64,000 nucleotides of DNA from Punica granatum (Eukaryota > Streptophyta > Magnoliopsida > Myrtales > Lythraceae): positions 13,966,230 to 14,030,229 of the forward strand of contig NC_045128.1 of assembly GCF_007655135.1 (NCBI RefSeq), read 5' to 3'. Position numbers and translations under genes: made by a program. Positions within the stretch are counted from its first letter, which is position 1, and each line of letters starts with the position of its first letter. Shown piece after piece: positions 14,627 through 52,250 of this stretch. The notes under the pieces were generated by a model. That model saw nothing but the letters and a program-made list of their open reading frames with translations. It was not told where the DNA came from and ran no database searches.

Positions 14627-14668
<42 letters not shown>

Positions 14669-23447: not shown

Positions 23448-24050
23448 AATATATAAAAGCAGAACACCAGAATCGTGAGAAGCATTATTTGAAAACCCTC
23501 AGCTCTTGGTAAAATGTCCCTGATTGCTCGAATTATTCTATTTGATAACCTTCAGCTCCATATAAATTGACTTTTCATTTTTAGTTAGATGAACTTATAC
23601 TATATGTTATTGGTGTTATCTTTAACAAATGTTAAAAATTTGTCTAGATTATTTGCATGTAATAATATACTTTATCGAAATACGTGATATACTTCAAATT
23701 CAATTGGTTAAAATCTCTATAAATACCCAACAAAATCCATTTTACCTATCGTCTTTCTATTAGTTATGCTTTTTTTTTCTTAGAACTTATGCATATATAA
23801 GTAGATTGTTTGCTTTATATGTTTAGAATACGTGTTTGTTTATTGTGATTATGGTTTTATTTATATAGCTGCCTTTTTTATATATATTTTTATCCATTTC
23901 GTTTATAAGTAACATGTGTTGATTCACTATTTTGTAAAAAAGAAGAAAAACTATTGCGCAATGCGTGAGAATCAACTAATATTTATAGCTCATGAACAAG
24001 TTTGACCCAAAGGTTTTCTAGTTACTAGATGCAAGGCACGTGCACATGCA
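23448..24050 (+). repeat. dispersed non-autonomous repeat, copy 1
   Basis: Shares a long diverged block with 51905-52250: ATATATAAAAG, then tatttg/tttat plus AACC-CT, then GTGAATTGAC/ATAAATTGAC, TTTTAGTTA-ATGAAC, TATTGGTGTTAT and TGTAATAATATA, in the same order and orientation. The end is marked by a CACGTG-containing motif (tagatgcaaggcacgtgcaca). No coding capacity. Confidence 0.5.
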
Positions 24051-26434: not shown

Positions 26435-27911
26435 TGTTGGGAATTGAACACCATATATATGTGGTAAAGCCCTTCAGGAGGGAAACATCCACATATAGAA
26501 TAGGGAATCCACTATACAATAATTAGGAGATTACAATTCTCAAAAATGTTTTTCAACCCAACTTCTATTACAAGCCCATATCGAGAAGTCTACAATCTCT
26601 CATTCTCTCTCGTTCATCTTCTCACTCTAAGCCTAGAGTCTCTGAGAAGACATATTAGATAATCCCAAAGATATTACACTATCACCTATCCAGGTAGTTA
26701 ACTACTCTTTCAGCTTGGCCCTAAGGGCCCTAAGGCTTAGCAGCACCGAGTCAACTCTTTAACTCGTACAAGACCCCTATACATAGACCCTCAAAAGGTA
26801 TCCCCTAATATTCTCTAGAGATATTTTATTATTGCTTCCTAAGATATTTTTCCTTTTGAGTATATTCATATATTACATGAAATCTAGAAAGCAGGAAATA
26901 TAATCTCAGTAGAATCTACGATTCTAGACATTTATCTTCGATCGGTCTCATGCTCACTCCGGGGCTTTTCGGACTTAATGCTAGACATTCGAACAATCTC
27001 CCCTTTGGCTTGCAGTAAGCCAAGCTCCGCAATGGTTTGGCACGATTCACCTATTCTGTCATAGCCCTGGGCTCCCCCTCGACCTGTCTTTCGTTAGCAT
27101 GTAGTCCCATAGAATTTGTGGCCTCCCTTCAGATTATACATATGAACAAACTCTATGTTAAGCCGAGATCTGGAGCTTCCATCCAATCTCCCCTTTTCCG
27201 CCGCCATGCGAGTTGAGGGAATTAGTGTTTCTCCTCCTAGTGTTTCGTCAAGGCCACGCTGCACCAGCAATGCCCTCCAGTTTGATCCATCAACCTTCTG
27301 AATATCTAATCTTACATCGACATCTTCAATCACTTGGAACCTATGCTCTGATACCAATTATTGGGAAAGAAAGATGCCTAAAAAAGAGATATGGAAATAA
27401 GGTAGTAAATCAAACAACAAATATACGTGGTAAAACCATTCAAAAGGGAAACATCCACGGACAAAATAAGGAATCCACTAAACGATAAATATAAGATTAC
27501 AATCCTCAAAGATGTCTCTTAGCCCGATCTCATTATAAGTCCATACTGAGAACAATTTACAATCTCTTGTTCTCCTTCATTCAGCTTCGCACTCTAACTC
27601 TAGAGTCTCTGAGAATGTATCTTTGAGAATCCCGAAGGGCCTCAAGGGCCCAGGGCTTCGCAGCACCGAGGCAACTCTTTAACTAGTACAAGACCCCTAT
27701 ATATAGACCCTCGAAAGATATCCCTAATATTCTCTAGAGATATCCTATTATCCATCCCTACAATATTTTTCCTTTTGAGTATATTCACATATTACATGAA
27801 ATCCAGAAAGCAGAAAATACAATCTCAGTAGAATTTGAGATTCTAGACTTACCGATCTAGTGCTCACACTGAGTCTTCGAGTTTTCGGGCTTAATGCAAG
27901 ACATCCCGGGA
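26435..27911 (-). mobile_element. small non-autonomous LTR retrotransposon, complete, TSD TTTGT
   Basis: Two diverged direct repeats, 26435-26995 (3' LTR, 561 bp) and 27359-27911 (5' LTR, 553 bp), enclose only 363 bp. On the minus strand a perfect initiator-Met-tRNA primer-binding site TGGTATCAGAGC (27345-27356) lies two bases inside the 5' LTR, and a polypurine tract AAAGGGGAGA abuts the TGTTCG start of the 3' LTR. The 5-base flanks TTTGT (26430-26434 and 27912-27916) match as a target-site duplication. There is no gag or pol; the 87-codon open frame starting at the primer site (27094-27357, minus) is fortuitous. Total length 1,477 bp, at the upper limit for a TRIM. Confidence 0.85.
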
Positions 27912-28608: not shown

Positions 28609-29103
28609 GTGAGTTGCGCATACTTCCAATCTATTGCCTTTTGGTCTGTCTGCTCAAAATTGGTTATTGGATATGTTAACATATGAACATGGAACTGAGT
28701 TAGTTGATTCTGATTGATTACTGCATGGGCATTTACTGTGCTGGGTTGGATTGCTAATGAATTGATCTAAGCGGACAGGGAACCATGTTGTCCTGACTTA
28801 CTGCTGTTCAGGTTTTGTACCCAGCGATTATCAATGTCTAACTGTGTAAAGGATTAATGGTTTTCTCTGCCACGATTTCATGTCTTGTTTTTGTATCATT
28901 GGATCGGGTTGGGTACTGTCAGTTGTAGATGAGCGAAAAGATAGCTTATGATTGATGTTTACCTTCGTGATTTGTTGGTTTTAGTTCGATTCTTTTGATC
29001 CCCTTAGCTGCATTTTCTCGCATCTTTCAGTAAATTTGTTAGTTTTTAGGGGTAAGATTTTGGATTGACTTGAATGCGTGTTGCATTGATCAGCGGTGTT
29101 GAA

Positions 29104-30408
29104 ATGGGGGATGGAAATTCACCTCCCGAGTCGCCCAAAAATAACTTGAACCAAGAGCTGGACCCTAGCTCGGTTCAGAACATCGAGAGGTCTCTGGAGA
29201 GTATAATGAGAGAGTTCAACGAGTCAGCCTCGGTGGGGAAGGTACACAAGTTCTGGGAAACCCAGCCTGTGGGCCAGTACAAGGATGTGGGGAACACGGG
29301 CCTGCCTGAAGGACCAATTGAGGCCTCGACCCCGCTCTCAGAGGTCAAGCAAGAGCCATATAACCTGCCGAGCCCCTATGAGTGGACCACATGTGACATG
29401 AACTCTGAGGAGACCTGCAATGAGGTCTACAATCTGTTGAAGAACAATTACGTTGAGGATGATGAGAACATGTTTAGGTTTAATTATTCGAAGGAGTTCC
29501 TGCAGTGGGCCTTGCACCCTCCGGGGTACTACACCAGCTGGCACATTGGGGTCCGTGCTAAAGCATCAAAGAAGCTTGTTGCGTTCATAACGGGCGTGCC
29601 GGCAAGGATCAAGGTACGTGACGATGTAGTGAAAATGGCAGAGGTTAACTTCTTATGTGTGCACAAGAAGCTTCGATCAAAGAGGCTTGCTCCGGTCATG
29701 ATCAAGGAGGTCACTAGGAGGGTCCACCTGGAGAACATCTGGCAGGCAGCTTATACTGCTGGGGTGGTCTTGCCGACCCCTATCACCACCTGTCAATACT
29801 GGCATCGATCCCTGAACCCAAAGAAGCTCATCGAGGTTGGGTTTTCCAGGCTTGGGGCTCGGATGACTATGAGCCGGACCATTAAGCTCTACAAGTTGCC
29901 CGATTCAACCGCTACCCCTGGATTCAGGGCGATGGAGCTCCGTGATGTCCCTGCAGTAACGCGACTGCTGAGGAATTATTTGGCTCGTTTTGTGGTAGCT
30001 CCTGATTTTGATGAGGACGATGTAGAGCACTGGCTCCTTCCGAGGGAGAACGTGATGGACACCTTCTTGGTTGAGAGCCCAGAGACCCACGAGGTCACAG
30101 ATATTTGCAGCTTCTACACCCTACCCTCAACGATCCTTGGGAATCAGAACCACTCAACCCTGAAGGCAGCTTATTCATACTACAACGTCTCCACAAAAAC
30201 TCCGCTGCTTCAGCTGACCAATGATGCGCTGATCATCGCAAAGCAGAAGGACTACGATGTGTTCAACGCTCTTGATGTGATGGAAAACGAGTGCTTCCTC
30301 AAGGAGCTGAAGTTTGGGCCGGGTGATGGGCAGCTTCACTATTACCTGTATAACTATCGTTTGAAACACGCCATTAAACCTTCCGAGCTGGGGCTCGTGC
30401 TTTTGTAG
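29104..30408 (+). CDS. NMT1: glycylpeptide N-tetradecanoyltransferase (N-myristoyltransferase)
   Basis: Cytosolic, ribosome-associated enzyme that transfers myristate from myristoyl-CoA to the N-terminal glycine of target proteins. The single open exon gives 434 residues, the usual size for plant NMTs. Family features in order: FWETQPV near residue 50, PLPSxYEW-type segment (NLPSPYEWTTCDMNS), the acyl-CoA-binding block EVNFLCVHKKLRSKRLAP, KEVTRRVHLENIWQAAYTAG, CQYWHRSLNPKKL, and the C-terminal GDGQLHYYLYNYR. It ends in ...LGLVLL; in this family the terminal carboxylate is the catalytic base, so the intact end matters. I chose 29104 because MGDGNSPPES matches family N termini; an in-frame ATG ten codons upstream lies at or beyond the likely leader splice acceptor. 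No lesions. Confidence 0.97.
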   Translation: MGDGNSPPESPKNNLNQELDPSSVQNIERSLESIMREFNESASVGKVHKFWETQPVGQYKDVGNTGLPEGPIEASTPLSEVKQEPYNLPSPYEWTTCDMNSEETCNEVYNLLKNNYVEDDENMFRFNYSKEFLQWALHPPGYYTSWHIGVRAKASKKLVAFITGVPARIKVRDDVVKMAEVNFLCVHKKLRSKRLAPVMIKEVTRRVHLENIWQAAYTAGVVLPTPITTCQYWHRSLNPKKLIEVGFSRLGARMTMSRTIKLYKLPDSTATPGFRAMELRDVPAVTRLLRNYLARFVVAPDFDEDDVEHWLLPRENVMDTFLVESPETHEVTDICSFYTLPSTILGNQNHSTLKAAYSYYNVSTKTPLLQLTNDALIIAKQKDYDVFNALDVMENECFLKELKFGPGDGQLHYYLYNYRLKHAIKPSELGLVLL

Positions 30409-31749: not shown

Positions 31750-33240
31750 ATACTTTACAGGACGTATTAAGTTTCTAGGTACTACTTCTATTTTCATTTT
31801 TCTTTTCCTTCTCAATTTTTCATTTTTGAAAATTATATTTTATTCAAAGAAAGTGCTAAATTCTTTTTTTGGAAAAAAGTGAACAAACCTTGTTAGTACT
31901 GAGAATAAGCTTGAACAAAAGAAAAGAATTATTTTTTTGCCTAAGTTTCTTTTTCTTTTTTTTAAATTTTTCCTTTTTTGTATATTTTTAATTTTTTGCA
32001 AATTTTTTTATCTTTAATTTCCATGCATTTTCTTGTAAATTTCTTTATGTTTTCACTTTAATTTTAAATATTTACTTCCTTTTTTAATTTTATTTTGTCT
32101 AACTTTTTATTCTTTGAATTTTATTTTTAAAATTTTTATCATATTTTCTTTTTTTGAACTTTTCTAAATTTTTTGGTTTCAGTAATTTCTTTCTGAAGTG
32201 TTTTCATTTTTCAATTTTTTTTATTTTCTGAATTTTAATTTAATTTTATTTGTTTATATATATATTTTTTAAAATTTTTGATGAAAATTTCTTATTTCTT
32301 CTATAAATTTTTTATTTTTATTTTTCTTTTTTTGAATTTTTTTCTCTTTTTCTTCGTTAAATTTTCTAATTTTTTGTATTTATATGTGCTTTATATTAGT
32401 TTTTGAATTTGGAAATGCCACGTCAGCAATCCATTTATCACATCAGTAAACATTAACGAAAAAGCTGAAGGATGTTTAGATATGGAAAGAAAATGAAAGT
32501 AATGCATTTTTTAATTTAAAAACAGTTTAATTTCTACCAAAAAATGTTTAAATTGGATTTGAGAAAATAGACTAAAACTTTATAAATTTTGGCGTAATTA
32601 ATCCAAATAAAGAATCCAGTTAAAGACTGAGATACTTTTTTCCTCATTTTCTCTGTCGAAGAAGTTGCTGGTGTGCTTACACAAGAGGATTAGAATCTCA
32701 CTATAATCTCCGGCAATCACCTCTCTCTCCCTAGAATTTCACCACCGCTGGTGCCTAAACGATTGCCGATACACGGAGAGGGAGCATTAACTGCGTCCGG
32801 AAAGCCAAGCTCATATCGACTGCAGGTTCAATGTCTCCTCTCCTCTCTCTCTTTCTCTCTCTCTATGTACATTGTCTAGATTTCTTCTCAAACCCACTCT
32901 ACATATGGTTAGTTCTGTTCTTAATTCGAAAAGATCAGAACGAGCAAGCTCTTGAGTTTTGCTGTCTCCACCAAGAGAGATTTTGTTCTCAAGTTTTTGT
33001 CTGACTGGTGGGGATTAAGTGGGCACAACTTTAAAGGGTACGTATATTGGAGGGAGCAAAAGGAAGACCAGAAAGCTCAGGTTCGTCAAAATCGATAACT
33101 CCTGCAAAGATTTTTTCTGATGGATAAAACAATATTAAAACAAAAATTTAAGGGAATTTTCCTGGGAAATTCAAAATTCTGAAGGAATTTCTAATGAAAA
33201 ATTACCTAAAAAATTTCTAAGAGAAAATCCATTGTATAAT
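31750..33240. other. T-rich intergenic tract, no gene recognised
   Basis: 31800-32400 is a long low-complexity T/A tract. 32650-33100 is more complex with a CT-rich stretch (about 32840-32870), but no coding region could be supported. Confidence 0.45.
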
Positions 33241-33244
33241 CAAA

Positions 33245-33306
33245 AGAGAGTATAGCGTAATAGTTTATGTTCTCGCTTGTTGATCTAGAAGTTGTAGGTT
33301 TGATAC
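33245..33306 (+). mobile_element. SINE, 5' half, interrupted by the large LTR sequence
   Basis: Box A TAGCGTAATAG and box B GGTTTGATAC match the intact SINE at 21535. The sequence stops at GATAC (33302-33306), where the LTR sequence begins. Its 3' half resumes at 51205. Confidence 0.75.
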
Positions 33307-34004
33307 TGTCAGCACCCCGTTTTGGTCCACTGGCGCTCGGGGATCGTCGAAGAGGACTCAATTATCTTTCCCATTTATCAAGAAAGTCACCTCTTACTAT
33401 CGCTTGATACACTCACTGCTGCTGAAATCAGGGCATTTCCTTAATTTAATTCCAAAATTTACATTTTTCAGAAAAAATACTCTACGAGACGTATTTGGGT
33501 TTTACATGCATCAATATCCATCTTTCAAAATTCATAACAATATTCAGGACTGGAAAATATTTTTCTGCGTAAGGTTGATCCTCGAATTTTTCTGAACATA
33601 ACAGTGATCCCGGATAATTTTTCAGGTATTCAATTGAAAAAGACGAGAATTTCAAGCCTTACGTGCGTTAATTTCGATTTTCAAATTCGGGACGATACTC
33701 AGAATTGAATTTTTTTTTTGTATAACGTCGATCCTCGAATTTTTTTGAACACAACAGTGGTCCTGAAATATTTTTTGGATAGTCGATTGAAGAGATTGAA
33801 TTTCAAAAATAATTGAGCAATTACGATCAACGCGTGTCGGAGGTCGATGTGGATTTTTATCGAGATTCGATCTCCGTCAATGCAAATTGGAATTCTCATA
33901 GAGCCAATTATTTTTCAAATTTCTCGATTTCGAAGTTTTTATTCCGAAAATGTTAATGGATCCCGAGAAATTGAATTTCGCCCAAAAGGACGCTCGTACG
34001 AATA

Positions 34005-34031
34005 AATTAATATATATATATATATATATAT
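34005..34031. repeat. (AT)n microsatellite
   Basis: Alternating TA of about 27 bases within the left arm of the LTR sequence. Confidence 0.85.
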
Positions 34032-34458
34032 GGCAGAGAAGTCAGCCAAGTGGTCAACTTGGCCGACCCCTATGCATTATTCTTTTATTTGTTCTGCTGC
34101 CTTGTCTTTCTTTTGGTTTTCTTTTCATCTTCTTCTTCTTTGACCCGAGCTTGCAATCACAGGCAAGTAACCTACCCTGTCTTCTCCATCTCATCTTCAA
34201 CTTCTCCTTGTGCTGCTCCAGCTTCTGCTGCGCCCATTCCCTCATCGGCAACTATCCATTCCATCACCATCAACCTTTCTTCTCCTTCTTCTTCTTGTTT
34301 TGCAGCCCTACTTGTCCGTTGGAGGCCCATGTCTTGTGACCAGCTCCACTGAACCCCTATCTTCAGCCGCACCTGCTCCTTCTCCCTCTCTTCCTCGGCA
34401 GCTCTTGTCAAGTTGCTCTACAACTGCCAGAGCCTAGGGGATCTTTTGCGATTGCTCC

Positions 34459-36268
34459 ATGACAACCATCACTTCTCCGCCCTATCTCTTTGAAGCTTTG
34501 ATCAGCTTAGCCTTCATCTGCTCTTTCTTTCTCTCTCTCTCTCTCTTTTTGATCTGTCATGTCTAACACTCTACTTTTCTTTGTTCAGAAAAAAAAACTT
34601 ACCCTTACCCTTCCATGGCCAGAAGAACTTTCGCTCTCCCTCCAGGCCTTACTCAGCCACGAGTAAAAGAAGGAATATAGAGTGTTTCCCGTGCAGTTCA
34701 AGAAAATGTTGCAGTCGCTCTTGCCGGAGATGACATGGACCGAGCACAGCGTGAAGTAGCTCGCTAGTGGCATTGGTCGGCTTCAGCCACAGTAGGTCAA
34801 AATCTTTTTTTAAGCTCCCCATTTCGATCACCTCTCCCATGCGCACACATTGAAGGAAGGAAGGAAGGAAGGAAGGGAGAGCTTGTTGTGTTTTGCTCGT
34901 TTCTTCACTTACTAGGACGGAACAAAGGGAGGCAGGGAGGAAGAAAGAATATGGAAATCATGGGTCCATCTTCGACAACCGTTATTGCCTCTACTGCTAT
35001 TCTTTTCTTGCTTTGTTGCTCGGTGTTACAGCCATGCCACTTGCAGTTACTTCTGCCCATCGACGAAGCTCTCGTTGAAATGAAGAGACCGTTTGTATTT
35101 TTCATGCCCTTTCATGAAAGGAGTTTGGGATAGAGTGCCGAGAGCTACTGGACATAATAGAGCTATCAGAATCCGGATGAATGAAGTTGATTCGGCCACT
35201 GTCAAGTTCAATAGAAAGGGTACTCTTGTTACCGTCATTAGGATTGTTTGGCAAGCATATATTTATCTCATCTAGAAGGCAATGAATGACATGATTCACT
35301 CACAGAATGTGACCTCACTGGAAGGTATTTGGAATGCCATTTGAGAGCTTGTAAAATTAGGGAGATTCTTGGAAGCAAATCAAGTACTCAAGCAGTTGAA
35401 ACTCTGGAGGTTATAGCCAAGAAGTTGCACCATAGGTATTGATCAAAGATCAATCTGATTTCTTGCAACAGAGGCGGGGCTAGTTTCAACAACTTCGTCA
35501 AATCCATCAACATCCTCAACAATGTAACATGTACCTGCACGAATGGTGCCTCTCGTGTCACCCACATTGAGCTCAACGGTCTTAACTTGACCGGCTTTGT
35601 GCCTGAAGAAGTGAGAAAGCTTCCTTATTTGCAAGTCCTCCATTTAAGTTGCAATCACCTGAATGGAACAATTATCACCAACTTAAGCCAAATTTCACTC
35701 AACTCTTTGTTCTTCTTTGGGAATCGAATCACTTGAACAATCCCAAAGGAAATTGGAGGTATTGCCATGCTCGAAAAACTTTTATTGGACGATAACTTAC
35801 TGGGAGTGTCTCTACATAAGAACCTCGGCAATTTGAGTCGATTGAGGAGACTCCTTTTTAGAGCGAACAATTTCACCGGAAGGATCCCGAAGTCATTTTC
35901 CTGTTTGAATAGTCTAAATGATTTTTGGATAGATGGGAATTTATTGTCGGAGAAGATACCAAAATTCATTGGGAACTAGAGGAATCTTACTAGACTCGAC
36001 ATGTAAGGCACGGGAATGGAGGGGCCTATTCTTCCTTCAATTTTTCAGTTTACAAACCTGCAAAAGTCAATTTCTAATTTGAATGGGTCCAGCTTTCCTT
36101 TCCATAAGTTGCAGAATATGACTAGACTACGATACCTCTTGTTGAGCTGTTGTTGCTGCTGTCCCATCTCTCCACAAGCTCCTGAAATCGTCCGACACCT
36201 TCGTTGTTGCTTCCTAAGCTTTCCCCGAGTTGAGTTAAGTCTCGATCTCTTTCTATTGGGTTTGATCC
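34459..36268 (+). pseudogene. RLK-ectodomain array, unit 1
   Basis: Unit of about 1.81 kb. From its start it carries a CT-rich segment, a poly-A run before ACTTACCC, a GAAG-rich tract (34853-34877), a short open frame with a signal-peptide-like N terminus (MEIMGPSS..., 34951-35133), about 270 bp of filler, then receptor sequence from about 35400: LEVIAKKL, the Cys-containing pre-LRR block, and LRRs with GLNLTGFVPEEV, SLFFFGNRIT, LLLDDNLLG, ANNFTGRIPKSF and NGSSFPFHKLQNMTRLRYL. These are the consecutive LRRs of LRR-VIII receptor-like kinases. Stops interrupt it (after GNRIT, GN and LDM). No transmembrane or kinase part. Confidence 0.8.
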
Positions 36269-37698
36269 ATGACAATCGTCACTTCTCTGTCCTATCTCTC
36301 TGAAGCTCTGCTCAGCTCAACTTTCATATGCTCTCTCTCTCTCTCTCTCTCTTTCTATTTTGTCATGTCCAATACTAAGCTTCTCTTTGCTAAAAAAAAA
36401 CTCACCTCATTTCCTCCCGTGGCTGGAAGAACTCTCGCTCTCCCTCCAGGCTTTACTCAGCCACGAGGAAAGGAAAGAACAAAGAGAGGTTCCCGTGCAG
36501 TTCAAGAAAATGTTGCAATCGCTCTTGCCAGAGACGACATGGACCGGGTACAGTATGAAGTAGCTCGCCGGCGGTATTGGTTCGGCTTCAGCCACTGTGG
36601 GCCGGAATCTTCTTCTAAGTTCCCCATTTCGATCACCTCTCCCCTGCACACACATTGAATGAAGGAAGGAAATAGAACTTGTTGTGTTTTGCTTGTTCCT
36701 TCACCTACTATGACGGAACGAAGGGAGGCAATGAGGAAGAAAGAATTTGGAAATCATGGGTCCATCTTCGACAACCGTTATAGCCTTTACCGCTCTTCTT
36801 TTTTTGCTCTATTATTTGGTGTAATGACCATGCCACTCGCAGCTGCTTCTGCCCATCGACAAAGCTCTCGTTGGACTGAATAGACATCTTGTATTTCTCA
36901 TGCCCTTTCACGAAAGGAGTTGGGAGAGTGTACCGAGAGCTACTGGACAGAATAGAGCTATTGGAATCTGGATGAATGAAGTTGAATGGGCCATTGTCAA
37001 GTTCAAAAGAAAGGGCACCCATGTTACTGTCTTTAGAAATGTTTGGTAAGCATATTTGTATCTTATCTAGAAGTCAAGGAATGACATGATTCACTCGAAG
37101 AATGTGGCCTTATTGGAAGGTATTTGGATAACCATTCGAGAGCTTTTAAAATTAGGGAGACTCTTGGGAGCAAGTCAAGTACTCAAGCAATTGAAACTCT
37201 GGAGGTTATAGCGAACAATTGCCGGAAGGACCCCAAAGTCATTTTTCTATTTGAATAGTCTAAATGACTTTTGGATAGATGGGGATTCATTGTCGGAGAA
37301 AATACCAAAATTCATTGGGAACTGGAGAAATCTTACTACACTTGACATGCAAGGCACGAGAATGGAGGGGTCTATTCCTCCAATTTCCCAGCTGACAAAC
37401 TTGCAAGAATTGATGATTTCTAATTTGAGTGGGTCTAGCTCACATTTCCCCAAGTTGTAGAATATGACTGGATTACGATACCTCCTGTTGAGCTGTTGTT
37501 GCTGCTATCCTATCTCCCCACGAGCTCTTGTAGTCGTCCGATATTGTCTCTGCTGCTTTGTGAGCCTTCTAAGCTTGTCACTATGCAGCTGCCATTCTAT
37601 GGGCCTTCTCGGGCCTTTCCAGAGGCCTTGACGTCGTTGCTCCCCTTTGTTTCTCCCGAGTTGAGGTAAGTCTTGATCTTTTCTTCTGCGGCTACTCA
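36269..37698 (+). pseudogene. RLK-ectodomain array, unit 2 (internally deleted)
   Basis: Same order as unit 1, but 1.43 kb long because about 440 bp are missing: the sequence jumps at 37210-37216 from the LEVIA segment (GGTTATAGCGAA) straight into the NNFTGR repeat (AGCGAACAATT). It keeps the final LRRs (LNDFWIDGDSLSEKIPKFIG, NWRNLTTLDMQGTRMEGS, LQELMISNLSGSSS). The leader frame is disrupted (ATG of MEIMG changed to TTG, and a stop after the leader). Confidence 0.8.
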
Positions 37699-39569
37699 AT
37701 GACAACCATCACTTCTCCGCCCTATCTCTCCGAAGATCTAATCAGCTTAGCCTTCATATGTTTCCTTTCTCTCTCTTTCTCTCACGTCGGTCATGTCCAA
37801 CAATTTGCTTCTCTTTGCTTAAAAAAAAAACTCACCCCTTTCTTCCCTTGGCTGGAAAAACTCTCGCTATCCCTCCAGGCTTTATTCAGCCACAGGGAAA
37901 GGAAGGAACATAGAACGTTTCCTATGCAGTCCAAGAAAATGTTTCAATCCCTCTTGCTGGAAGCGTCATGGACTGGGCATAGCATGAAGTAGCTCACAGG
38001 CAACATTGGTTGGCTTCAGCCACTACGAGTCGAAATTTTCTTCTAAACTCCCCATTTCGATCACCTCTACCTTGCGTGTACATCGAATGAAGGAAGGAAG
38101 TGAGACCTTGTTGTGTTTTGCTTGTTCCTTCTCCATCCAAGACGAAACAAAAGGAGAGAAGGAGGAAAAAAGAATCTAGAAATCATGGGTCCATCATTGA
38201 CCACCGTTACTGTTAGTCTTTTCTTGCTCTGTTGTTTGGTGTTATCGCCATGCCACTCGCAGCTGCTTCTGCCTCTCGACGAAGCTCTCGTTGGAATGAA
38301 GAGACCATTTATATTTCTCATGCCTTTTCACAAAAGGAGTTTGAGAGAGGATGCCGAGAGCTACTAGACAGAATAGAGTCGTTGGAATCTTGATGAATGA
38401 AGTTGAATGGACCATTGTCAAGTTCAAAAGAAATGGCACTCTTGTTACAATTTTTAAGATTTTTTAGCAAGCATATTTGTATCTCATCAAGGCAATGAAT
38501 GACATGATTTACTGACAAAATATGGCCTCACTAGAAGGTATTTGGAATGCCATTCAAGAGCATGTAAAATTAGGGAGACTCTTAGGAACAAGTCAAGTAC
38601 TCAAGCAATTGAAACTCTGAAGGTTATAGCGAAGAAGTTGTACAATAGATATTGGCCAAAGATCACCCCGATTTGTTGCCATAAAGGTGGGGGTAGTTTT
38701 TACAATTTTGTCAAATCCATCAACATCCTCAACAATGTACCATGCACCTGCGCAAAGGGTGCCTGCCACGTCACCCACATTGAGCTCAACGGTCTCAACT
38801 TGACCGGCTTTGTATATGAAGAAGTGGGAAAGCTTCCTTATTTGCAAGTCCTCCATCTAAATCGCAATTACCTAAATGGAACAATTCCCTCTAAACTAAG
38901 ACAATTTTCGCACATCTCCTTGTCGCTCCTCGGGAATCGAATCACTAAAACAATCCTGAAAGAAATTGGAGATATTGCCATACTCGAAGAATTTATATTG
39001 GACGACAACTTACTTGGAGGGCCTCTACATGAGAAAATTGGCAATTTGAGTCGATTGAGGAGACTCCTTCTCGGAGCAAACAATTTCACCGGACGGATCC
39101 TAATGTCATTCTCCTATTTTAATAGTCTAAATGACTTCCTGATAGATGGGGATTCATTGTCGGGGAAGATACCAAAATTAATTGGGAACTGGAGGAATCT
39201 TATTAGACTCGACAAGCAAGGCACGAGAGTGAATGGGCCTATTCCTCCTTCAATTTTCTAGCTAACAAACCTACAAGAGTTGATGATTTCTACTTTGAGT
39301 AGGTCTAGCTCACTTTTTCCCAGATTGCAAAATATGACTAGATTACGATACCACTTGTTGAGCTGTTGTTGCAGCTGTCTGTCTCCCCACGAGCTCTTAG
39401 AGTCGTCTAACACATTCGTTGTTACTTCCTGAGCCTTCCCGAGCTTGTCACTATGTAACTGCCATTCTCCGAGCCTCCTCGGGCCTTTCTAGAGGCCTTG
39501 ACGACGTTGCTCCCCTTTGTTTCCCCCAAGTTAAGCTAAGTTTTGATCTCTTTCTTTTGCGGTTGCTCT
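37699..39569 (+). pseudogene. RLK-ectodomain array, unit 3 (best preserved)
   Basis: Full-length unit (1.87 kb). The receptor part 38542-39261 is the longest open frame of the array, 239 codons. It covers IETLKVIAKKL, the paired-Cys block (ITPICCHKGGGSF, NNVPCTCAKGACHVTHIELN) and about five LRRs ending in RVNGPIPPSIF. A TAG then replaces the CAG present in sister copies (PSISQLTNLQEL), and homology continues beyond it to NMTRLRYHLL. The leader frame (MGPSLTTV..., LLPLDEALVGMK) is intact but separated from the receptor part by about 270 bp with stops. Lacks transmembrane and kinase regions. Confidence 0.85.
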
Positions 39570-41461
39570 ATGACAACCATCACTTCCCCGCTCTACCTTT
39601 CTGAAGCCCCGATTAGCTCAGCCTTCATCTGCTCTCTCTCTCTCTCTCTTTCTCTCTCGTCTGTCATGTCCAACACTCTGCTTCTCTTTACTTTAAAAAA
39701 AAAAACTCACTCCCTTTCTTACTGTGGCTGGAAGAACTCTCGCTCTCCCTCCAGTCTTTACTTAGCCACGAGGAAAAAGAGGGACAAAGAGCGTTTCCCG
39801 TGCAATCCAAGAAAATGTTGCAATCTCTCTTGCTGGAGGCGACATGGACCAGGCACAGCGTGAAATAGCTCACCAGCGGTATTGGCTGGCTTCAGCCACA
39901 ACAAGCCAAAATTTTTTTCTAGGCTCCCCACTCTGTTCATCCCTACCCTACGCACACATCGAATGAAGGAAGGAAGGGAGAGCTTATTGTGTTTTGCTTG
40001 TTCCTTCATCTACCAGGACGAAACGAAGGGAGGGAGGGAGGGAGGGAGGAAGAAAGAATCTGAAAATTATGGGTCCATCATCGACCACCGTTATTTCTTT
40101 TGCTGCTATTCTTTTCTTGTTCCGTTGTTCGGCGTTACTGCCATGCCACTTGCAGCTACTTCTGCCCCTCGACGAAATTCTCATTGGAATGAAGAGACCG
40201 TTTGTATTTCTCATGCCATTTCACGAAAGATGTTTGGGTGAGGGTGCTGAGAGCTACTGGACCAAATATGGCTGTTGGAATATGAATGAACGAAGTGGAC
40301 TTGGCCATTGTCAAGTTCAAAAGCAAGGGCACTCTTGTTACAGTTTTTAAGATTGTTTGGCAAACTTATTTGTATCTCATATAGAAGGCAAGGAATGACG
40401 TGATTCACTTACAGAATGTGGCCTCATTGGAAGGTATTTGGAGTGCCATTCGAGAGCATGTAAAATTAGGGAGACTCTTGAGAGCAAGTTAAGTATTTTA
40501 AGTAATTGAAACTTTGCTGGTTATAGTGAAGAAATTGCACAATAGATATTGGCCAAAGATCACCTCAACTTCCTATAGCAGAGGCGGGGTTGGTTTCAAC
40601 AATTTCGTCAAATCCGTCAACATTCCCAACAATGTAACACGCACCTGAGTGAATGGTGCCTGCCAGGTCACCCACATTGAGCCTAACGGTCTAAACTTGA
40701 TCGGCTTTGTGTCTGAAGAAGGGGGAAAGTTTCCTTATTTGCAAGTCCTCCATCTAAATCGCAATTACGTGAATGAAACAATTCACACCAAACTAAGCCA
40801 ATTTTCGCTCATCTCCTTGTCGCTCCTCGGGAATCGGATCACTGGAACAATCCCTAAGGAAATTGGAGATATTGCCCGAAAAACTTATATTGGACGAAAA
40901 CTTACTCGGAGGGCCTCTACATGAGAACCTCGACAATTTGAGTCTGTGAAAAAGACTCTTTTTCGGAGCAAACAATTTCACCGGAAGGATCTCAAAGTCA
41001 TTTTCCTATTTGAATAGTCTAAATGACTTCCAAATAGATAGGGATTCATTGTCGGAGAAGATACCAAAATTTTGGGAACTGAATGAATCTTACTAGACTC
41101 AACATGCAAGGCACGGTAGTGGAGGGGCCTATTCCACATTCAATGTCCCAGTTGACTAACCTGCAAGAGTTGATGATTTTCTAATTTGAGTGGGTCCAGC
41201 TCACCTTTCCCCAAGTTGCAGAATATGACTAGACTACGATACCACTTGTTGAGCTGTTGTTGTAGTTGTCCCATCTTTCCACGAGCTTCTGGAGTCATCC
41301 AACACATTCGTTGTTGTTTCATGAGCCTTCCCAAGCTCGTCGCTATGCAACCATCATTCTCTAAGCCTTCTCGGGCCTTTCCAGGGGCCTTAACATCGTT
41401 GCTCCCTTTTGTTTCCCCCGAGTTGAGCTAAGTCTCAATCTCTTTCTTCTACGGTTGCTCC
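39570..41461 (+). pseudogene. RLK-ectodomain array, unit 4
   Basis: Full-length unit (1.89 kb) with an intact leader frame (from about 40070) and receptor homology 40520-41250. Frame breaks include a stop in the Cys block (CACCTGAGTGAATGG), a deletion near 40877 that removes part of one LRR, and a stop at GTCTGTGAAAAAG. It contains a (GGGA)n tract at about 40027-40050. Confidence 0.8.
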
Positions 41462-42745
41462 ATGACAACCATCACTTCCCCGCCTTATCTCTCTGACGCT
41501 CTGATCGGTTGAGCCTTCATCTGCTCAATCTCTTTCTCTCATCTGTCATGTCCAACACTCTGCGGCTCTTTGTTCAAAAAAAAAAAACTCACCCCTTTCT
41601 TCCTGTGGCTAGAAGCACTCTCGCTCTCGCACCAATCTTTACTCAGCCACGAGGAAATGAAGGAACATAGAGTATTTCTCGTGTAATCCAAGAAAATGTT
41701 GCAATCCCTCTTGCTAGAGGCGACATGGACCGAACATAGCGTGAATTAGCTCGTCGGCGGCATTGGCCGGGTTCAGCCACTGCAGGCGGAATCTTCTTCT
41801 AAGCTCCCCATTTTGATCACCTTTACCCGGCTCACATATCGAATAAAGGAAGGAAGGGAGAGTTTGTTGTGTTTTGCTAGTTCCTTCACCTACCAGGATG
41901 AAATGAAGGGAGGGAGGGAGGAAAAAAGTATCTGGAAATCATGGGTTCATCATCAACCACAAATATTGCCCATGCTATTCTTCTTTTCTTGCTTTGTGGT
42001 TCGGTATTACTGCCATGCCACTCGCAGCTGCTTCTGCCCCTCGACGAAGCTCTCGCTAGAATGAAGAGACCATTTGTATTTCTCATGCCTTTTCACGGAA
42101 GGAGTTTGAGAGAGGGTGCCGAGAGCAACTGGACCAATCCCAATGGAAATTGGACATACTGCCATGCACGAAGAACTTATATTGGATGACAACCTATTGG
42201 GAGGGCCTCTACATGAGAACCTCGACAATTTGGGTAGATGGATGAGACTTCTTCTCGGAGTGAACAATTTCATCGGAAGGATCCCAAAGTCGTTTTCCCA
42301 TTTGAATAGTTTAAATGACTTCCGAATAGATGGGGATTCATTGTCGGGGAAAATACCAAAATTCATTGGGAACAGGAGGAATCTTACTAGACTCGACATG
42401 CAAGGCACATGAGTGAAGGGGTTTATTCCTCCTTCAATTTCCCAGTTGACAAACTCGCAAGAGTTGACGATTTCTAATTTGTGTGGGTCTAGCTCACCTT
42501 TTCCCAAGTTGCAAAATATGACTAGATTACGATACCACTTGTTGAGCTGTTGTTGCAGCTGTCCCATTTCCCCACGGGCTCTCGGAGTCGTCTGACACAT
42601 TTGCTGCTGCTTCCCGAGCTCTTGGCTATGCAACTGCCACTCTCCAAGCCTTCTCGAGCCTTTCCAGAGGCCTTGATGTCATTGCTCCCCTTTGTTTCCC
42701 CAGAGTTGAGCTAAGTTTTCGATGTCTTTCTTTTGCGGCTGCTCC
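41462..42745 (+). pseudogene. RLK-ectodomain array, unit 5 (internally deleted)
   Basis: 1.28 kb. About 600 bp are missing between the leader segment and the middle LRRs. The junction (42128-42145) joins GAGAGCAACTGGACCAAT to CCCAATGGAAATTGG within shared ACTGG. After the junction it reads PIPMEIGHTA, LILDDNLLGGPLHENLDN, GVNNFIGRIPKSF, GDSLSGKIPKFIGNRRNL, then a stop (CATGA) and further homology to LQNMTRLRYHLL. Confidence 0.8.
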
Positions 42746-43968
42746 ATGACAACCATCACTTTCCTGCTCTACATTTTTGAAGCCCTAATCAGCTCAACCT
42801 TCATCTGCTCCCTCTCTCTCTCTCGTTTGTCTTGTCCAACACTTTTCTTCTCTTTGCTCAGAAAAAAAAAAACTCACCCCTTTCTTCCCATGGATGGAAG
42901 AACTCTCGCTCCCTCTCAAGGCTTCACTTAGCCACGTGGAAAGGAAGGAACAAAGAGTGTTTCCCATATAGTCCAAGGAAATGTTGCAATCCCTTTTGCC
43001 GAAGGCGATATGGACTGGGCACAGCGTGAAGTAGCTTGCCGGCGGCATTGACCGGCTTCAACCACTGTGAGCCGAAATAATCTTTTTAGCTCCCCATTTT
43101 GATCACCTCTATCCTATGCACACATCGAATGAAGGAAGGAATGGAGAGCTTATTGTGTCTTGCTTGTTCCTTCAGCTACCAGGACGAAACGAATAGATGA
43201 AGGGATGAAGGAAGAAAGAATATGGAGATCATGGGTCCACCATCGACCACCGTTACTTCCTCTGCTACTTTTCTTTTCTTGCTCTATTGTTCGGTGTTAC
43301 CGCTATGCCACTCGCAACTGCTTCTGCCCCTCGATGAAGCTCTCATTAGAATGAAGAGAACGTTTGTATTTCTCATGCCCTTTCACAAAAGGAGTTTGGG
43401 AGAGGGTGCCGAGAGCTACTGGACCAAATAAGGCTATTGGAATATGAATGAATGAAGTGGAATTGGCCATTGTCAAGTTCAAAAGAAAGGACACTCTTGT
43501 TATAGTTTTTAATATTGTTTGGCAAGCTTATTTGTATCTCATATAGAAGGCAAGGAATGACGTCATTCATTGACAAAATGTGGCCTCACTGGAAGTATTT
43601 GGAGTGTCATTCATGAGCATGTAAAATTAGGGAGACTCTTGAGAGCAAGTGTAGTATTTTAAGCAGTTGAAACTTTGGAGGTTATAGCGAAGAAGTTGCA
43701 CAATAGATAGTGGCCAAAGATCACCCCGACTTCCTACAGTAAAGGCGGGGCTAGTTTCAATAATTTCGTCAAATCCATCAATATCCTCAGTAATGTAACA
43801 TGCACATGCGCTAATGGTGCCTGCCACGTCAGCCACACTAAGCTCAACGGTCTCAACTTGACCAGATTTGTTCCCGAAGAAGTGGGAAAGCTTCCTTATT
43901 TGCAAGTCCTCCATCTAAATCGCAACTATCTGAATGGAACAATTCCCACCAACCTAAGTCAATTTTGC
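42746..43968 (+). pseudogene. RLK-ectodomain array, unit 6 (3' truncated, fused to unit 7)
   Basis: Starts with the usual CT-rich and leader segments (43222-43431, intact short frame) and receptor homology from about 43675 (LEVIAKKLHN, NNFVKSINILSNVTCTCANG, LNLTRFVPEEVGKLPYLQVL, HLNRNYLNGTIPTNLSQF). It then breaks off at 43964-43968, where CAATTTT of the LRR runs directly into TTTTGCTTGTTCC of the next unit's leader. Confidence 0.8.
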
Positions 43969-45415
43969 TTGTTCCTTCACCTACTGGGATGGAACGAAGG
44001 GAGGCAAGGAGGAAGAAAGATTCTGGAAATCATGGGTCCATCTTAGACCATTGTTATTGCTTATGCTGCTCTTCTTTTCTTGCTCTGCTGTTCGGTTTTA
44101 CCGCCATGCCAATCGCAGTTGCTTCTGCCCCTCGATGAAGCTCTCGTTGGAATGAAGAGACCGTTTGTATGTCTCATACCCTTTCATGAAAGGAGTTTGG
44201 GAGAGGGTGCCAAGAGCTACTAGACAAAATAGAGTTGTTGGAATCTAGATGAATGAAGTTGAATGGGCCATTGTCAAGTTCAAAAGAAAAAAGAACACTC
44301 TTGTTACTATTTTTAGGATTGTTTGGCAAGCATATTTGTATCTCATCTAGAAAGCAAGGAATGACATGATTCACTCACAGAATGTGGCCTTATTGAAAGG
44401 TATTTAGAATACTATTCAAGAGCTTGTAAAATTAGAGAGACTCTTGTGAGCAAGTCAACTACTCAAGTAGTTGATACTCTGGAGGTTATAGCGAAAAAGT
44501 TGTACCATATATATTGGCCAACGATCACCCTGACTTCCTGCAGCAGAGGCGGGCTAGTTTCAACAATTTCGTCATATCCATCAATATCCTCAACAATGTA
44601 ACATGCACCTGTGCGAATGATGTCTGCCACGTTACCCACATTGAGCTCAACGATCTCAACTTGATTAGATTTGTGCCTGAAGAAGTAGGAAAGCTTCCTC
44701 ATTTGTGAGTCCTCAATCTAAATCGCAATTACCTGAATGGAATAATTCCCACCAACCTAAGTCAAATTTCGTTCATCTTGCTGTCGCTCCTCGGGAATCG
44801 GATGACTAGAACAATCCTTAAGGAAATTGGAGATATTGGCACGCTCGAAGAACTTATATTGGACGACAACTTACTGGGAAGGCCTCTACATGAGAACCTC
44901 GACAATTTGAGTCGATCGAGGAGTCTCTTTCTCGGAGCGAACAGTTTCACCGGAAAGATCTTAAAGTCATTTTCCTGTTTGTATAGTCTAAATGACTTCC
45001 GGATGGATGGGGATTCATTGTCGGGGAAGATACCAAAATTCATTGAGAACTGAAGGAATCTTACTAGACTTAACATGCATGGCACGGGAGTGGAGGGGCC
45101 TATTCGTCCTTCAATTTCCCCATTGACAAACCTATAAGAGTTGATGATTTCTGATTTGAGTAGGTCCAGCTCACATTTCCCCAAGTTTTAGAATATGGCT
45201 AGACTATAATGTCTCTTGTTGAGCTGTTGTTACTGTTGTCTCGTCTCCCCACGTGTTCCCAGAGTCGTCTGACAATTTCACTGTTGCTTCCCGAGCCTTC
45301 CCGAGCTCGTCGCTATGCAGCCGCCATTCTTCGAGCCTTCTCGGGCCTTTCTAGAGACTTTGACGTTGTTGCTCCCCTTTATTTTCCCCGAGTTGAGCTA
45401 AGTCTCAATTTCTCT
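43969..45415 (+). pseudogene. RLK-ectodomain array, unit 7 (last)
   Basis: Begins inside the leader region because of the fusion with unit 6. The leader start codon is followed by an early stop (MGPS*). Receptor homology runs 44475-45190: NNFVISINILNNVTCTCAND, VCHVTHIELNDLNLIRFVPE, LLGNRMTRTILKEIG, DIGTLEELILDDNLLGRPLH, SGKIPKFIEN, with stops. After the common 3' segment (to about 45415) the repeat ends and unrelated LTR-arm sequence follows. Confidence 0.8.
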
Positions 45416-46379
45416 CTTTTCCTTTTATCTCTTTACCTCGGCCTACCACTATTTTGTCGTTCTTTTCCTTCCTTTTTCAGGTTTGAGTTCTCGACAACGA
45501 ACCTCTGAGCTCTCTTCGAACTTCCCATTTCTGAATGTGGTTCCCTTTGAGCTCCTCGAGCTATTGCTGCCATTGGTGCACCCATGCTCGCGTCCCTATC
45601 GTGGCCCGCTACTGTCCTTGTTGTGCCCTCGCTACTTCTGGTACTGTTGCCCTCGCCGCGCTCCTCTCATGATCCTTGCGACATTGGCTCGAGAGCAGTA
45701 TAACTCTTGAACTTAGTGGCATGCTTAGGACTCCATCTCTTGGTGATTTGGTGATTATGATGATGTTAATGATGAGTTTTGGTTGAAAAAGCATGAATCG
45801 GTTTGATAATTAAACTCGGCTTTCTTAAAATCGGCATGTTGTGATGATAATCGACTCAAGCATGAATTTGAATATGTAAAGAATCGGACTTAAAATCGGT
45901 TGTCTGAAGTGAGAACGAACTCACACGAATTAATCCCATGCTCACTCGGCCTTAAGGGATAAAATTAACCAAATACACCAAAACCAGCTTAATTAGTCAC
46001 TCGAAATTAAAATCGGCAATTTAAATATCAATGTGATTTTTTTATACTTGTGTTCGTGTGCTTTGGATGTTTGAATGCATTATTAATAAAAAATCTCACA
46101 CGAATCGGATTAATCACGTAAAGTCGGTTTAAAATCGCATTTAATTCCAGGATAGTTGGGAATTAGAGCTTTATTGAGCGGTCCACCAATGGCTGGCTCT
46201 ACAGCTTGAAACCCGCAAACCAATGCATTTGGCAAGTGCATTCAATTTAATTAACTCCAGTCATGTGGTAATCGGGACGTTTCACTCGTCCAATTAATCC
46301 ACTTGACTTTCCTAATAAATTATACGAACCAGTTAATATTCTGTAAATCGCATTGATATATCATGAACCGGTGGCCATG
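45416..46379. other. right-of-array arm of the giant LTR sequence
   Basis: Low-copy, non-coding sequence between the array and the nested solo LTR. It has a recurring AATCGG motif (45790-46150) but no gene. By position it belongs to the element that starts at 33307. Confidence 0.5.
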
Positions 46380-46502
46380 TGTCACGACCCGAAATTTCAG
46401 CAAAGTTTCCCCTATATTTCCCTCGATATCCATTATCATACAAATTATTCACATAAAACCCGCTTTCCATAAATTCCTAAATGTATAAACTAATCCAGTA
46501 AG

Positions 46503-46503
<1 letters not shown>

Positions 46504-46538
<35 letters not shown>

Positions 46539-46541
46539 TAT
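46504..46541. repeat. (CT)n(CA)n compound microsatellite
   Basis: CTCTCTCTCTCT followed by CACACACACACA, inside the nested solo LTR. Confidence 0.9.
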
Positions 46542-47203
46542 ATTCCAAGAGATTACTTCTTCTCACCCACACCACCAAACTGACTAAGCAAAAATTTCAA
46601 GTTGTAATATATTCAAATACATTATATACAAAAAGAATACCTACTAAATAACTAGGATCCTTACATAGTCCTCTGAGTTGATCCCCGATAGCAGCTAGAA
46701 GCTTATCTAGGAAAAATATATGCAGAGCGTGAGCTGCATCTCAGTGAGTACTTTATTCCAAAGTTAGATGACTTGTTATTAAATAAATATTTAATTGCAA
46801 ACAACCAAACATTCAAATAAATAATACAATCACATCCAATCCAATTGTCTGCTCACTCGCACACATATACGATATATATATACATATTATATAAAAAATA
46901 ATTTTATCCAATATAGTAACTAAATTTAAGTCCTACTAACAAATACAAATAACTATTCCAACCATTTCTCTAATATCAAATAGCACATAAACATCGAATA
47001 TCCATTCATTTAGCGTTTAATAAAAAGTCACTACACAATCACTTAATAAATCAAGTTTCAGAAACAACACGATTTTCATAGAACAACCTCAGACAATTTC
47101 AACAATCATCACATCTCCAACAATCAGACATGACAAACAATATAAAACAAAATCAATCAATAATCTCCTTGCAACAAGTTAGGTTGCTACCGTGACCCCG
47201 CCC

Positions 47204-47405
47204 GTCTCATTCAGGCCCCTTTTTTTCTATTCCGCCGAGTTCAGGAGCCATTCAGGCCCCATTTTCTATTTCGCCGGGTCCAGCGGCCGTTCGAGCCCCA
47301 TTTTCTATTTCGCCGGGTCCAGCGGCCGTTTGGACCCCATTTTCTATTCCGCTAGGTCCAGCGGCCATTCGAGCCCCTTTTGCTATTCCGTCGGGTCCAG
47401 CGGTC
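47204..47405. repeat. 39-bp GC-rich minisatellite, about 5 copies
   Basis: CCATTTTCTATTTCGCCGGG followed by TCCAGCGGCC repeats with a 39-base period (equivalent positions 47261, 47300 and 47339, with weaker copies on each side). It makes both strands open over about 115 and 66 codons; I treat these frames as artefacts of the repeat. Confidence 0.9.
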
Positions 47406-49116
47406 CCATGACTATAGTAAAACAATATCAGTATACACAAGCACAATTCCAATCACAGTACAAAAGTATCACATTATCATCACACATCTCATACACAATC
47501 AACATACACAATCACATTGCATATCTCAAGTCAAAGTGAAACATAAAAGACAATATCTTTTGAATCCTTTCACACAACATAACTAGACCGATTCCTTAAT
47601 CTAACTATCACAATATTCTTCTTAAATAATTTATATAACTATAATATATCATTTCATAAGGGAATAGAGTACTCATCGAATAGCCAAAAATATTTCATTG
47701 GGTTGATTCTTTGAGAGATGCAAAACTCAATCTCCATAACCCCGATTAATTATAAGTATAAAAATCAGATAACACACAATGCAATAGTTTAAGTATACAT
47801 ACTGGTGATATTAAATTTTTCATTCCAAAGAAAAACCAACATTAACACTTCCATACTCGATCTAGCTTAATTACCCTCTGTTCCGCCATCAATGCGAAAC
47901 AAATGAAAAAAATAAAATCATCCTTTGCCATCCATGAACTTCTTTACAGCCTATTACCTCAAATAAATCAAAGGAAAATTCTTGCTTGTAACGTCACTAA
48001 CAATTCAGACTTAACACAACAAGAACAAGGTTAATATATTCATTCAATCCATAAGTTCCTCATGCCAAACTACTCCATCTTAGTCTCAAAAGAAAAGAAT
48101 TATTTAGACTCAATCGCCCTTACAATTTATGGGTACTCAACATGCGATCTACTAATTATCTCCAATAAGAAAACTAAATCCAGTTGAAAACAATTCTTAG
48201 ACAACCAGTAAGTTTCTCCTATCAATATTACCTAACATCTCTACCTCTTCGTCACACTCCCTGCTTACTAGATTTCCCCCAAAACCTTGACCAATCTATC
48301 ACTACTAACTTCATCAATTTGGTAAATTAACTAATTCTCTCTACTTAGAGATAGTCAAAATTAAGAAACAGAGCATTTCTTGCCCCTCTAACTGACAAAG
48401 TCTCAGCAAATTTCGACTTCCAAGCATAAGAATCAACTGCAGTAACCAACTAACTCTACTACTACTTCATGCTCCATCTTTAATCCATTGAATACCTAGC
48501 GGACGACAGCTAACCCCGATTCATCAATAGCACGGCCATGACAGAACCAAACCGAAAACCCATAGCTTCCCACATCCGACATAATGGCTAACTCGCAACA
48601 AATCAAACTTTCCCCACTACAAGAAATTTGAATCATATAGAGTTCAATCAAAGTTCAGAAGACGAACAAAACAATAGATCGAGATTCACCAAGTTGATAA
48701 AGCAAAGTTCCAGTCTGTTCCTCACCTTCGGGTGAGCTCCATCCCAACTCTCGGACGAGTTTTCTATTTCTCTCTCTAACCCATCCTCTCTCTGTCTCTC
48801 TAAACTTCTCTTTCTCTCTCGCTCTCTCTCTCACCCCTCTTTGTTTCCTCTGCTTCTCCGATTTTCTCCAGCTAAAACAAGACAAGGAAAGAAAAAGAAA
48901 GAAAACCAAAAGAAATGGAATGGCTGAAAGAAACTAAAGAAAATGAATAGATGGCGGTGGAAGAAACAAGATTACTCAGGTGAAGAATGGTAAGGCCACG
49001 TGGAGCCCATGCCACCATCCCTTTTTCTTTTTTCTCATCAAAGTGCATTATATATATATATATAAGCATATGTGTATGTATGCACATTTAAAAAATATGT
49101 CGGGTCTCACACCATG

Positions 49117-51204
49117 CCTTTTTCAAAACTCACATTTTAATAATTTACCAAGATGCATGGCATGCGTAGTATGGACATCTAGGGAGGACTCGCGTGTCCT
49201 GACTCGAGTCTGGGTCTAATTTGAGGCGACTCGAGTCTGGGCCCGATTTGAGGCGGCTCAAGTCGGAACATGAGAGTTCTCCTTGTACTCCTTCCGGGCA
49301 GAGTGACTGGTTTCTTGGCTCCTTCGAGGTCCACACGACCCTGGAGGATCTAGGAAATCAGTCGACACCAGCTATTGACCTCGACGGTCTGCGTCGCACA
49401 GTCTCAATTTCACTCCACACACACACATTTTCCGATTCAAGGGCATGGCTATCTATTCGTGACTTCCCGACAACCCTAGGGTTATGGTGATCGAAACACT
49501 TCAAGCCATAGGTAAAGACGGGTAGCCCGTGTGGGCACAAGTCTTATTTGTAAAGCCCTATTTACTCGACTGGGGTGTTTTTGTCATCCTAGCATATATT
49601 CGGACGCTTAGAGAGGTGGACCGGAGACCCGAGCATGGACGGCCCGTGAAAGGTTATATGGCGCTTCATGGTGGCACCTTCATGGTGTTTCGCATTCTCA
49701 CTTTCCTAAGTTTGTGATTAGATTGGGTTTATCCTTCATAAAATATAAAACCGGACTAATCACATACTTGACATAATAAACACAGGGAAATGAGAGGGAT
49801 AAAACCCTAGGTTTGAGGATTCTGGCATAACACATCTCTATCATTAGCGATTAATCCTTCAGTGTCACAAAACATAAGAATTTAAAATGAACTCACACAC
49901 TTGAGGCTTGGCAACAGACATCATGTCTGTCAAGTCCTTTTTTAAGCAAAAGCCAAATTCTCCATGCCCTTCCCAGGGCGGCTCTAGGCCAATTCTCACC
50001 TTACACCCTTTTGTTTTTGTCTATTTAGAGTAGAAACACGATTGTTAAGCAACCTCAGTTCATAATTTGATAATCATGTAAACACGGCAATTAACACACA
50101 ACTTGTATGTCTTCATCTATTTTTATATGTTTTTATATGTTTTCTTTTATTTTTTTGCGGGTCGAGCCCGACTCTATAGGACACAATACACAAGGGATCT
50201 AACACCCCAACCATCAATCACGGGATCCAACGACCCTACAAGCCTCGAGCGCGCGCGACCCGAGTACGAAATGGGGTCTACCCTTGAGTCACTATTTCGA
50301 CCATAGTAGAATCCAAGCGGAGGATGACTCGGGTTGGGAGGTGTGAAGCGAGGTTAAACAATCACTAGGGAGCTCGACTGATCCCGCGGATATCTCGAGG
50401 ACTATTCAGTCCTCCTTGGACTCGCTGGTTCGGTCAGACTTGACCCCCGGCTCTCACGAGCCCGCGTCGCATTAATTTCAGTTTCGGTCTTTCCAACCTC
50501 ACGGTGAGCGCGAACGGAATATTGGCTGAATGCAAACTGACTAGGATCCATTTGCTATATTAGTATTTATTTTTTTAGAGTACATTGTGAGGTATTTATT
50601 CGTACATTTATTATTGTAATGATCTCGATCGGCGAGCGCAAGGTTCGAGAGTCGGAACCGATTGAGTCGGTTTACAAGTCCCTGAGCCGAGCAGGACCAC
50701 ATGAGTCACGGGCCCGATCCACACAGTGAACCAGTCATCCCGGTCTGGTTTGCCGAGATGCGAAGGCGGTGGACCGATCCCTTAACCCGAGGATCCACTC
50801 ATGTTTCGGTCTCTTAACCCGAATCAATTGCTTCCACAAATTGACGGTGTCAAATTGTGCAAGATGAGAGAAACTTAATTGAGCGGTAAATAAATTAGAA
50901 AACGGCAAACGTTAGACAAACTCGAGTACCGATAGGGTGTGCGGGAGATAGGCCCGCACGTAATAGAACTCTCGAATTCGGAACTTATAGTTCCGCAATG
51001 CCATAAGCCTTAACACACTAGGTGTATCCTTACCCCTAGACCCGGACGACTCACTGGTCTTCGATCTCCGAAGTCGTAAACAAATAGTAACGACTCCTTC
51101 TCACGTGTGTCCATCACGCGTCTCTAGGAAGGTGGATACTCCCAAATCGTGCGATTAGTGTGCACACATGCGGGTCCCGACGAGACAATATTCGAGTCCG
51201 CACA
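49117..51204. other. right arm of the giant LTR sequence
   Basis: GC-richer, non-coding sequence that ends at the GCACA terminus. It contains an (AT)-rich piece around 50100-50155 and no recognised gene. No primer-binding site or polypurine tract was identified, consistent with LTR rather than internal sequence. Confidence 0.5.
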
Positions 51205-51301
51205 GATACTTAGTGGAACTACATGTGCTCATTTATTAGTAGTTATTTATGATTTCTCTTTTATTGTGCTTGGTTTTAGGCCTCTTTTGTATAAAAAAAA
51301 T
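51205..51301 (+). mobile_element. SINE, 3' half
   Basis: Starts with the duplicated GATAC and continues TTAGTGGAACTACATG..., matching the intact SINE body at 21535 (TTTAGTAGAACTAC...), and ends in an A-rich tail (TATAAAAAAAA). Joined to 33245-33306 it restores one full SINE. Confidence 0.75.
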
Positions 51302-51904: not shown

Positions 51905-52250
51905 ATATAATATATAAAAGTCGAGGTGTCAAATATGAAAAATTTATTTTATAACCCTTAATTCTTAGTAAAATATCATCGGTAGCTTGAATCAATTCCT
52001 TTAATAACCCTTAGTTTCATGTGAATTGACAATTTAATTTTAGTTAAATGAACGTATATTATATTTTATTGGTGTTATATTCAACGAATATTATAAATTT
52101 ATATTGATTATTTGTATGTAATAATATATAATTACAAAATTTTATGCAAAACTAAATCTTTCCTCAATAATCAGAAAGAACTTCAAATACGTGATATTTT
52201 TCAAGTTCAATATGCTAAATTTTCTATAACTAGTAAGAAGGCACGTGTGT
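51905..52250 (+). repeat. dispersed non-autonomous repeat, copy 2
   Basis: Collinear with 23448-23745 over about 300 bases at moderate divergence. It ends CTAGTAAGAAGGCACGTGTG, similar to the CACGTG-bearing end of copy 1. Confidence 0.5.

Follow-up and report, generated by a model that had tools for sequence, protein, structure and literature searches.

The 64,000-nucleotide stretch of Punica granatum contig NC_045128.1 analysed here (the window) raises the question of how a tandem array of receptor fragments came to lie within a 17.9-kb segment (33307–51204) that separates the two parts of a SINE. The account that we favour, with a probability of roughly two in three, is that the segment is a solo LTR in the SINE with another LTR nested in it, that the fragments go back to an mRNA captured by template switching and multiplied in a burst of slippage, and that LTR–LTR loss and unselected decay produced the present structure. 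The evidence is presented from the array outwards.

The array consists of seven units on the forward strand, extending from 34442 to about 45420 and separated by approximate borders. A full unit measures 1.8–1.9 kb and contains a 5′ stretch, a signal-peptide frame, about 330 bases without a known relative, and LRRs. Unit 3 (37674–39552; LRR part 38605–39351) is the most open copy, with an ORF at 38503–39261. Unit 1 spans 34442–36241 (LRR part 35392–36144) and unit 4 spans 39545–41444, with a frameshifted LRR part at about 40502–41275. Internal gaps of 449 and 588 alignment columns mark unit 2 (36242–37681; LRR remnant 37224–37499) and unit 5 (41437–42728; LRR part 42122–42592), respectively. 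Units 6 (42721–43964; LRR part about 43663–43964) and 7 (43965–45420; LRR part 44467–45200) are truncated at a common joint, the former on its 3′ side and the latter on its 5′ side.

The LRRs of the units correspond to residues 6–262 of P0121, a Punica receptor of 978 residues, with identities mostly of 56–61%. Unit 3 aligns with residues 6–256 of this receptor at 60% with no gap longer than three residues, shows 51–60% identity to the seven relatives compared, and covers the span to parts of which the other units align. Among the best 120 of 1560 protein matches, ordered by E-value, the Punica proteins P0121 and P0122 rank first and second and P0124 of Trapa natans ranks fourth, behind a protein at 33%; the signal-peptide frame also resembles P0124 by eye. 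The units therefore carry the LRR ectodomain of the LRR-malectin-kinase group. Malectin and kinase domains were sought by alignment and none was found: alignments stop around residue 262 of P0121, with a few continuing weakly to residues 275–303. Because the alignments end there and both parts are absent, the units are, as judged from sequence, fragments of receptors and not a receptor gene. The host-gene array proposed in the initial annotation is thus present, and can be specified as LRR-malectin-kinase receptor fragments devoid of intron-sized gaps. Like receptors of the LRR-VIII-2 group (At1g53430/At1g53440-like; P0121, P0122, and P0124), the units possess the first LRRs and a similar signal peptide; unlike them, they lack the malectin, transmembrane, and kinase parts, and have broken frames and no sign of selection. 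The 330-base stretch had no convincing relative in Pfam or PDB (best E 0.017 and 1.7, respectively). Relatives of the whole chimaera, sought among proteins 0.55–1.75 times the length of the query, amounted to 95 matches with a top identity of 64% over 35% of the query.

All 21 pairs of units share 81.5–85.6% identity, and internal branches account for 6.1% of the total length of the unit tree, which is nearly a star; the star is imperfect, with units 4 and 6 grouped together at 99% support. These even pair identities and short internal branches suggest that the array arose in something close to one burst, followed by independent change in each unit. Differences in the LRR part are distributed over the three codon positions as 14.1, 14.5, and 16.7%, with no 3-base periodicity (p 0.34), and of the 13 codons at which any unit has a stop, 11 are interrupted in a single unit. 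Since the codon positions differ so evenly and most stops are private, the LRR frame was probably largely open when the burst took place, and its decay since then looks neutral. Outside the LRR part, weak 3-base periodicity of unit differences was seen within the 5′ region, at 37690–38150 (p 0.005), and over half of the 330-base stretch, at 38275–38440 (p 0.003), both among ten tests without correction.

The first and last units join the LTR at a short match, TCTTTTGC / TCTTTTCC, which may be of the kind used by slippage. In the account favoured here, slippage at such matches would have expanded the captured piece to about seven units in a single burst, and the units would then have decayed without selection. 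For the tandem repeats of Tat elements, illegitimate recombination or an abnormal transfer of strands in the course of replication has been put forward, the exact mechanism being described as yet to be determined (PMC7004042). The array could instead have grown after insertion, by chromosomal unequal crossing-over that started from an ordinary solo LTR with one captured unit, a history that departs from ours only in the timing and mechanism of array growth. Chromosomal tandem growth from LTR segments has been described (PMC12628747), and the internal deletions and recombined joint of units 2, 5, and 6/7 are consistent with it. The narrow range of the 21 pair identities and the short internal branches argue against recent or graded duplication, but a single early burst after insertion would be compatible with both. 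We consider growth after insertion a substantial possibility, though one that falls short of an even chance.

A spliced source for the fragment is suggested by the LRR span, in which about 250 codons run without an intron-sized gap in units 1, 3, 4, and 7, with small frameshifts in units 4 and 7. Clades of this receptor group in poplar reach maxima of 23–26 introns, with numbers varying within clades (PMC7783096). An uninterrupted span of this length in a group that reaches such intron numbers makes capture from a spliced mRNA likely, though it is no proof. The transcribed leader of the LTR would have gained the piece before or around insertion, by template switching during reverse transcription of a receptor-kinase transcript, and the piece would have comprised the start region, the signal peptide, the roughly 330 bases without a known relative, and the first LRRs. 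Entry as genomic DNA, from an intronless pseudogene or an intron-poor gene, would be in keeping with the variable intron numbers of the group and with the position of the 330-base stretch, which by eye lies at the probable joint of exons 1 and 2 and could be unspliced. This stretch does not, however, begin with GT, so that it is not obviously a retained intron and could be an extra exon, and the other 250 or so codons contain no intron-sized insertion. A genomic source accordingly appears unlikely.

The sequence around the array falls into three pieces on the forward strand. The left arm (33307–34441) starts with TGTCAGCACCCC and contains a CT-rich leader and a TATA-like (AT)n tract near 34010–34031, which may have acted as leader and promoter. 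Comparison of the arms delimits a middle piece (45421–46379) that extends to a nested solo LTR, and the right arm (49117–51204) ends in GAGTCCGCACA. The nested LTR, to which no strand is assigned, occupies 2732 bases (46380–49111), has the ends TGTCACGACCC..GGGTCTCACA, and is flanked by CCATG at 46375–46379 and 49112–49116; it would have entered the first LTR at a later time. Within it, a 39-base unit is repeated 4.6 times (47223–47403), and the left arm includes a 154-base tandem duplication, 74% alike (33502–33806). Removal of the array and the nested LTR leaves 4182 bases, in agreement with the remainder of about 4.2 kb given previously, although the arms listed then had omitted the middle piece.

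The three pieces show no similarity to one another at E 0.1, and a search of the window for second copies of the termini gave one match for each. The arms, read through in 18 frames, contained no retroviral or polyprotein Pfam domain. Weak Pfam matches there (B3, E 0.072; AGA2, E 0.011) fell below their cut-offs and were set aside, as was a weak match in CT-rich sequence between the left arm (34350–34409) and the array (42778–42836; 73%, E 0.005). A search for the LTR start in viral contigs found none. A full-length element with two diverged LTRs was rejected on account of the single ends in the window and the lack of similarity between arms. The window thus holds neither a paired terminal repeat nor an internal coding region for this element, as expected of a solo LTR. 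Together with the TG..CA ends and the 5-base duplication described below, these single termini, dissimilar arms, and domain-free frames make a solo LTR the simplest reading of the remainder. The solo LTR proposed in the initial annotation, on the grounds that no second terminus or retroviral-type gene was visible, is in this way supported, though not proven, its identity as an LTR resting on the ends, the duplication, and the absent internal features. In our account a long-LTR retrotransposon would have inserted into the SINE, and LTR–LTR recombination would have removed its internal part and left 33307–51204 behind.

The 4.2-kb remainder falls within the 1.9–6.5 kb reported for Ogre LTRs (PMC6431247), a size that is in itself no proof of lineage. 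Ogre/Tat elements are defined by a polyprotein with an archaeal-type RNase H between RH and INT (PMC6317226); the element described here has no coding region, and size is the only feature by which the name Ogre/Tat fits it. The same structure might also be a doubly truncated full element, in which the head of a 5′ LTR, an array from the internal or 3′ untranslated region, and the tail of a 3′ LTR were brought together by two deletions. Precedents exist in the tandem arrays of the Tat lineage between pol and the 3′ LTR (PMC11963269, PMC7004042) and in genes captured inside full-length elements (PMC3726574). The two deletions would nevertheless have to be independent, no second piece of an LTR start or end was found in the window, and CT-rich, leader-like sequence flanks the array on both sides by eye; double truncation is consequently rather improbable.

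The insertion begins with TGTCAGCACC and ends with CCGCACA, and the 5 bases GATAC are read directly outside both termini on the forward strand (33302–33306 and 51205–51209). TG..CA ends with a target duplication of 4–6 bases are the mark of an LTR retrotransposon insertion, and duplications of 5 bases were found in 93.4% of plant elements surveyed (PMC6317226). Taken alone, the termini and the duplication prove little, because 15 of the 10663 TGTC..CACA pairs lying 10–25 kb apart in the window, the insertion's own pair included, also have matching 5-base flanks. The flanking SINE halves, and not the ends and duplication, carry the weight in accepting a single insertion.

Self-comparison of the window provides an unsplit reference copy of the SINE at 21528–21662 (forward strand, as are both parts of the split copy). 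The left part of the split SINE (33239–33306) ends in the first GATAC. Its head (33239–33259), which ends 47 bases to the left of the insertion, matches 17 of 21 bases of the intact SINE at 21528, the top match on both strands of the window after the intact copy itself; none of 20 base-shuffled windows, examined on one strand, contained a head match of at least 17. The SINE is broken at AGGTTTGATAC, from which the sequence runs on into the right part (51205–51300). The SINE body restarts at 51205, with 74% identity over 97 columns to 21569–21662. The target is therefore continuous across the insertion, head and body on opposite sides marking one break. By gapped score, the left flank alone is not above background (13.0, against a mean of 12.1 and a maximum of 19 for shuffled sequence), probably because the intact copy is shorter between the head and the B-box and a costly gap results. 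When joined to the right flank, the true left flank was equalled by 5 of 1985 random left flanks and by 6 of 123 flanks ending in GATA[CT]. No part of the window matched Rfam at gathering scores. These results bear out the initial annotation in treating the 17.9 kb as one LTR-type insertion with GATAC flanks that interrupts a SINE, and in joining the flanking DNA into one SINE like the copy near 21535. A chance pairing of the ends, with array and arms unrelated and TG..CA and GATAC coincidental, would agree with the comparable flanked pairs in the window and with the background gapped score of the left half, but is very improbable given that the outer SINE head and body mark the same break.

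The window contains several other repeats and features. A dispersed pair of repeats, 77% alike, lies at 23485–23669 and 51944–52128, the second copy lying close to the insertion on its right. A direct duplication, 74% alike, occupies 26447–26988 and 27413–27904, about 970 bases apart, and a 123-base unit occurs as two repeats with 99% identity at 22027–22280. An unbroken run of 37 G is located at 14630–14666, and a myristoyltransferase ORF at 29074–30408 comprises 444 codons with neither a stop nor an intron.

Gene capture and tandem arrays are each known from LTR elements, and a captured-gene array apparently lying inside an LTR is an unusual variant of both. Captured genes in plant LTR retrotransposons number 672 in rice, 1343 in sorghum, and 424 in maize (PMC3726574); as here, host gene sequence is found between the ends of an LTR element, but the genes described in that study are in full-length elements, whereas the Punica fragments, about seven in tandem, apparently lie within the LTR, and no internal region is left. 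The arrays of Ogre/Retand (Tat) elements and the satellites derived from them (PMC7004042, PMC11963269) likewise reside on an LTR element and may have arisen by abnormal strand transfer. In contrast to the 1.8–1.9 kb host-gene units in a presumed LTR, those arrays lie in the 3′ untranslated region or between pol and the 3′ LTR. Chimeras of the BARE-2 type, as outlined in a review (PMC13317346), also brought foreign sequence into an LTR region by template switching, but the donor there was another retrotransposon and here would be a host receptor transcript. Among the matches listed in a literature search, which covered titles and the openings of abstracts and reached few subscription journals, no host-gene or receptor array inside an LTR was found.

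It is conceivable, though doubtful, that this lineage carried a multi-copy receptor array in its LTR, with two arrays, some 11 kb, per full insertion under the LTR promoter, and so supplied, in mobile form, antisense or small RNA directed against a receptor family. The locus unites two habits of plant LTR elements, the uptake of host genes and the growth of tandem arrays, in a place that would be copied twice with every insertion. If intact relatives of the element exist, it would allow the capture of an mRNA within an LTR, and the growth of an array, to be dated.
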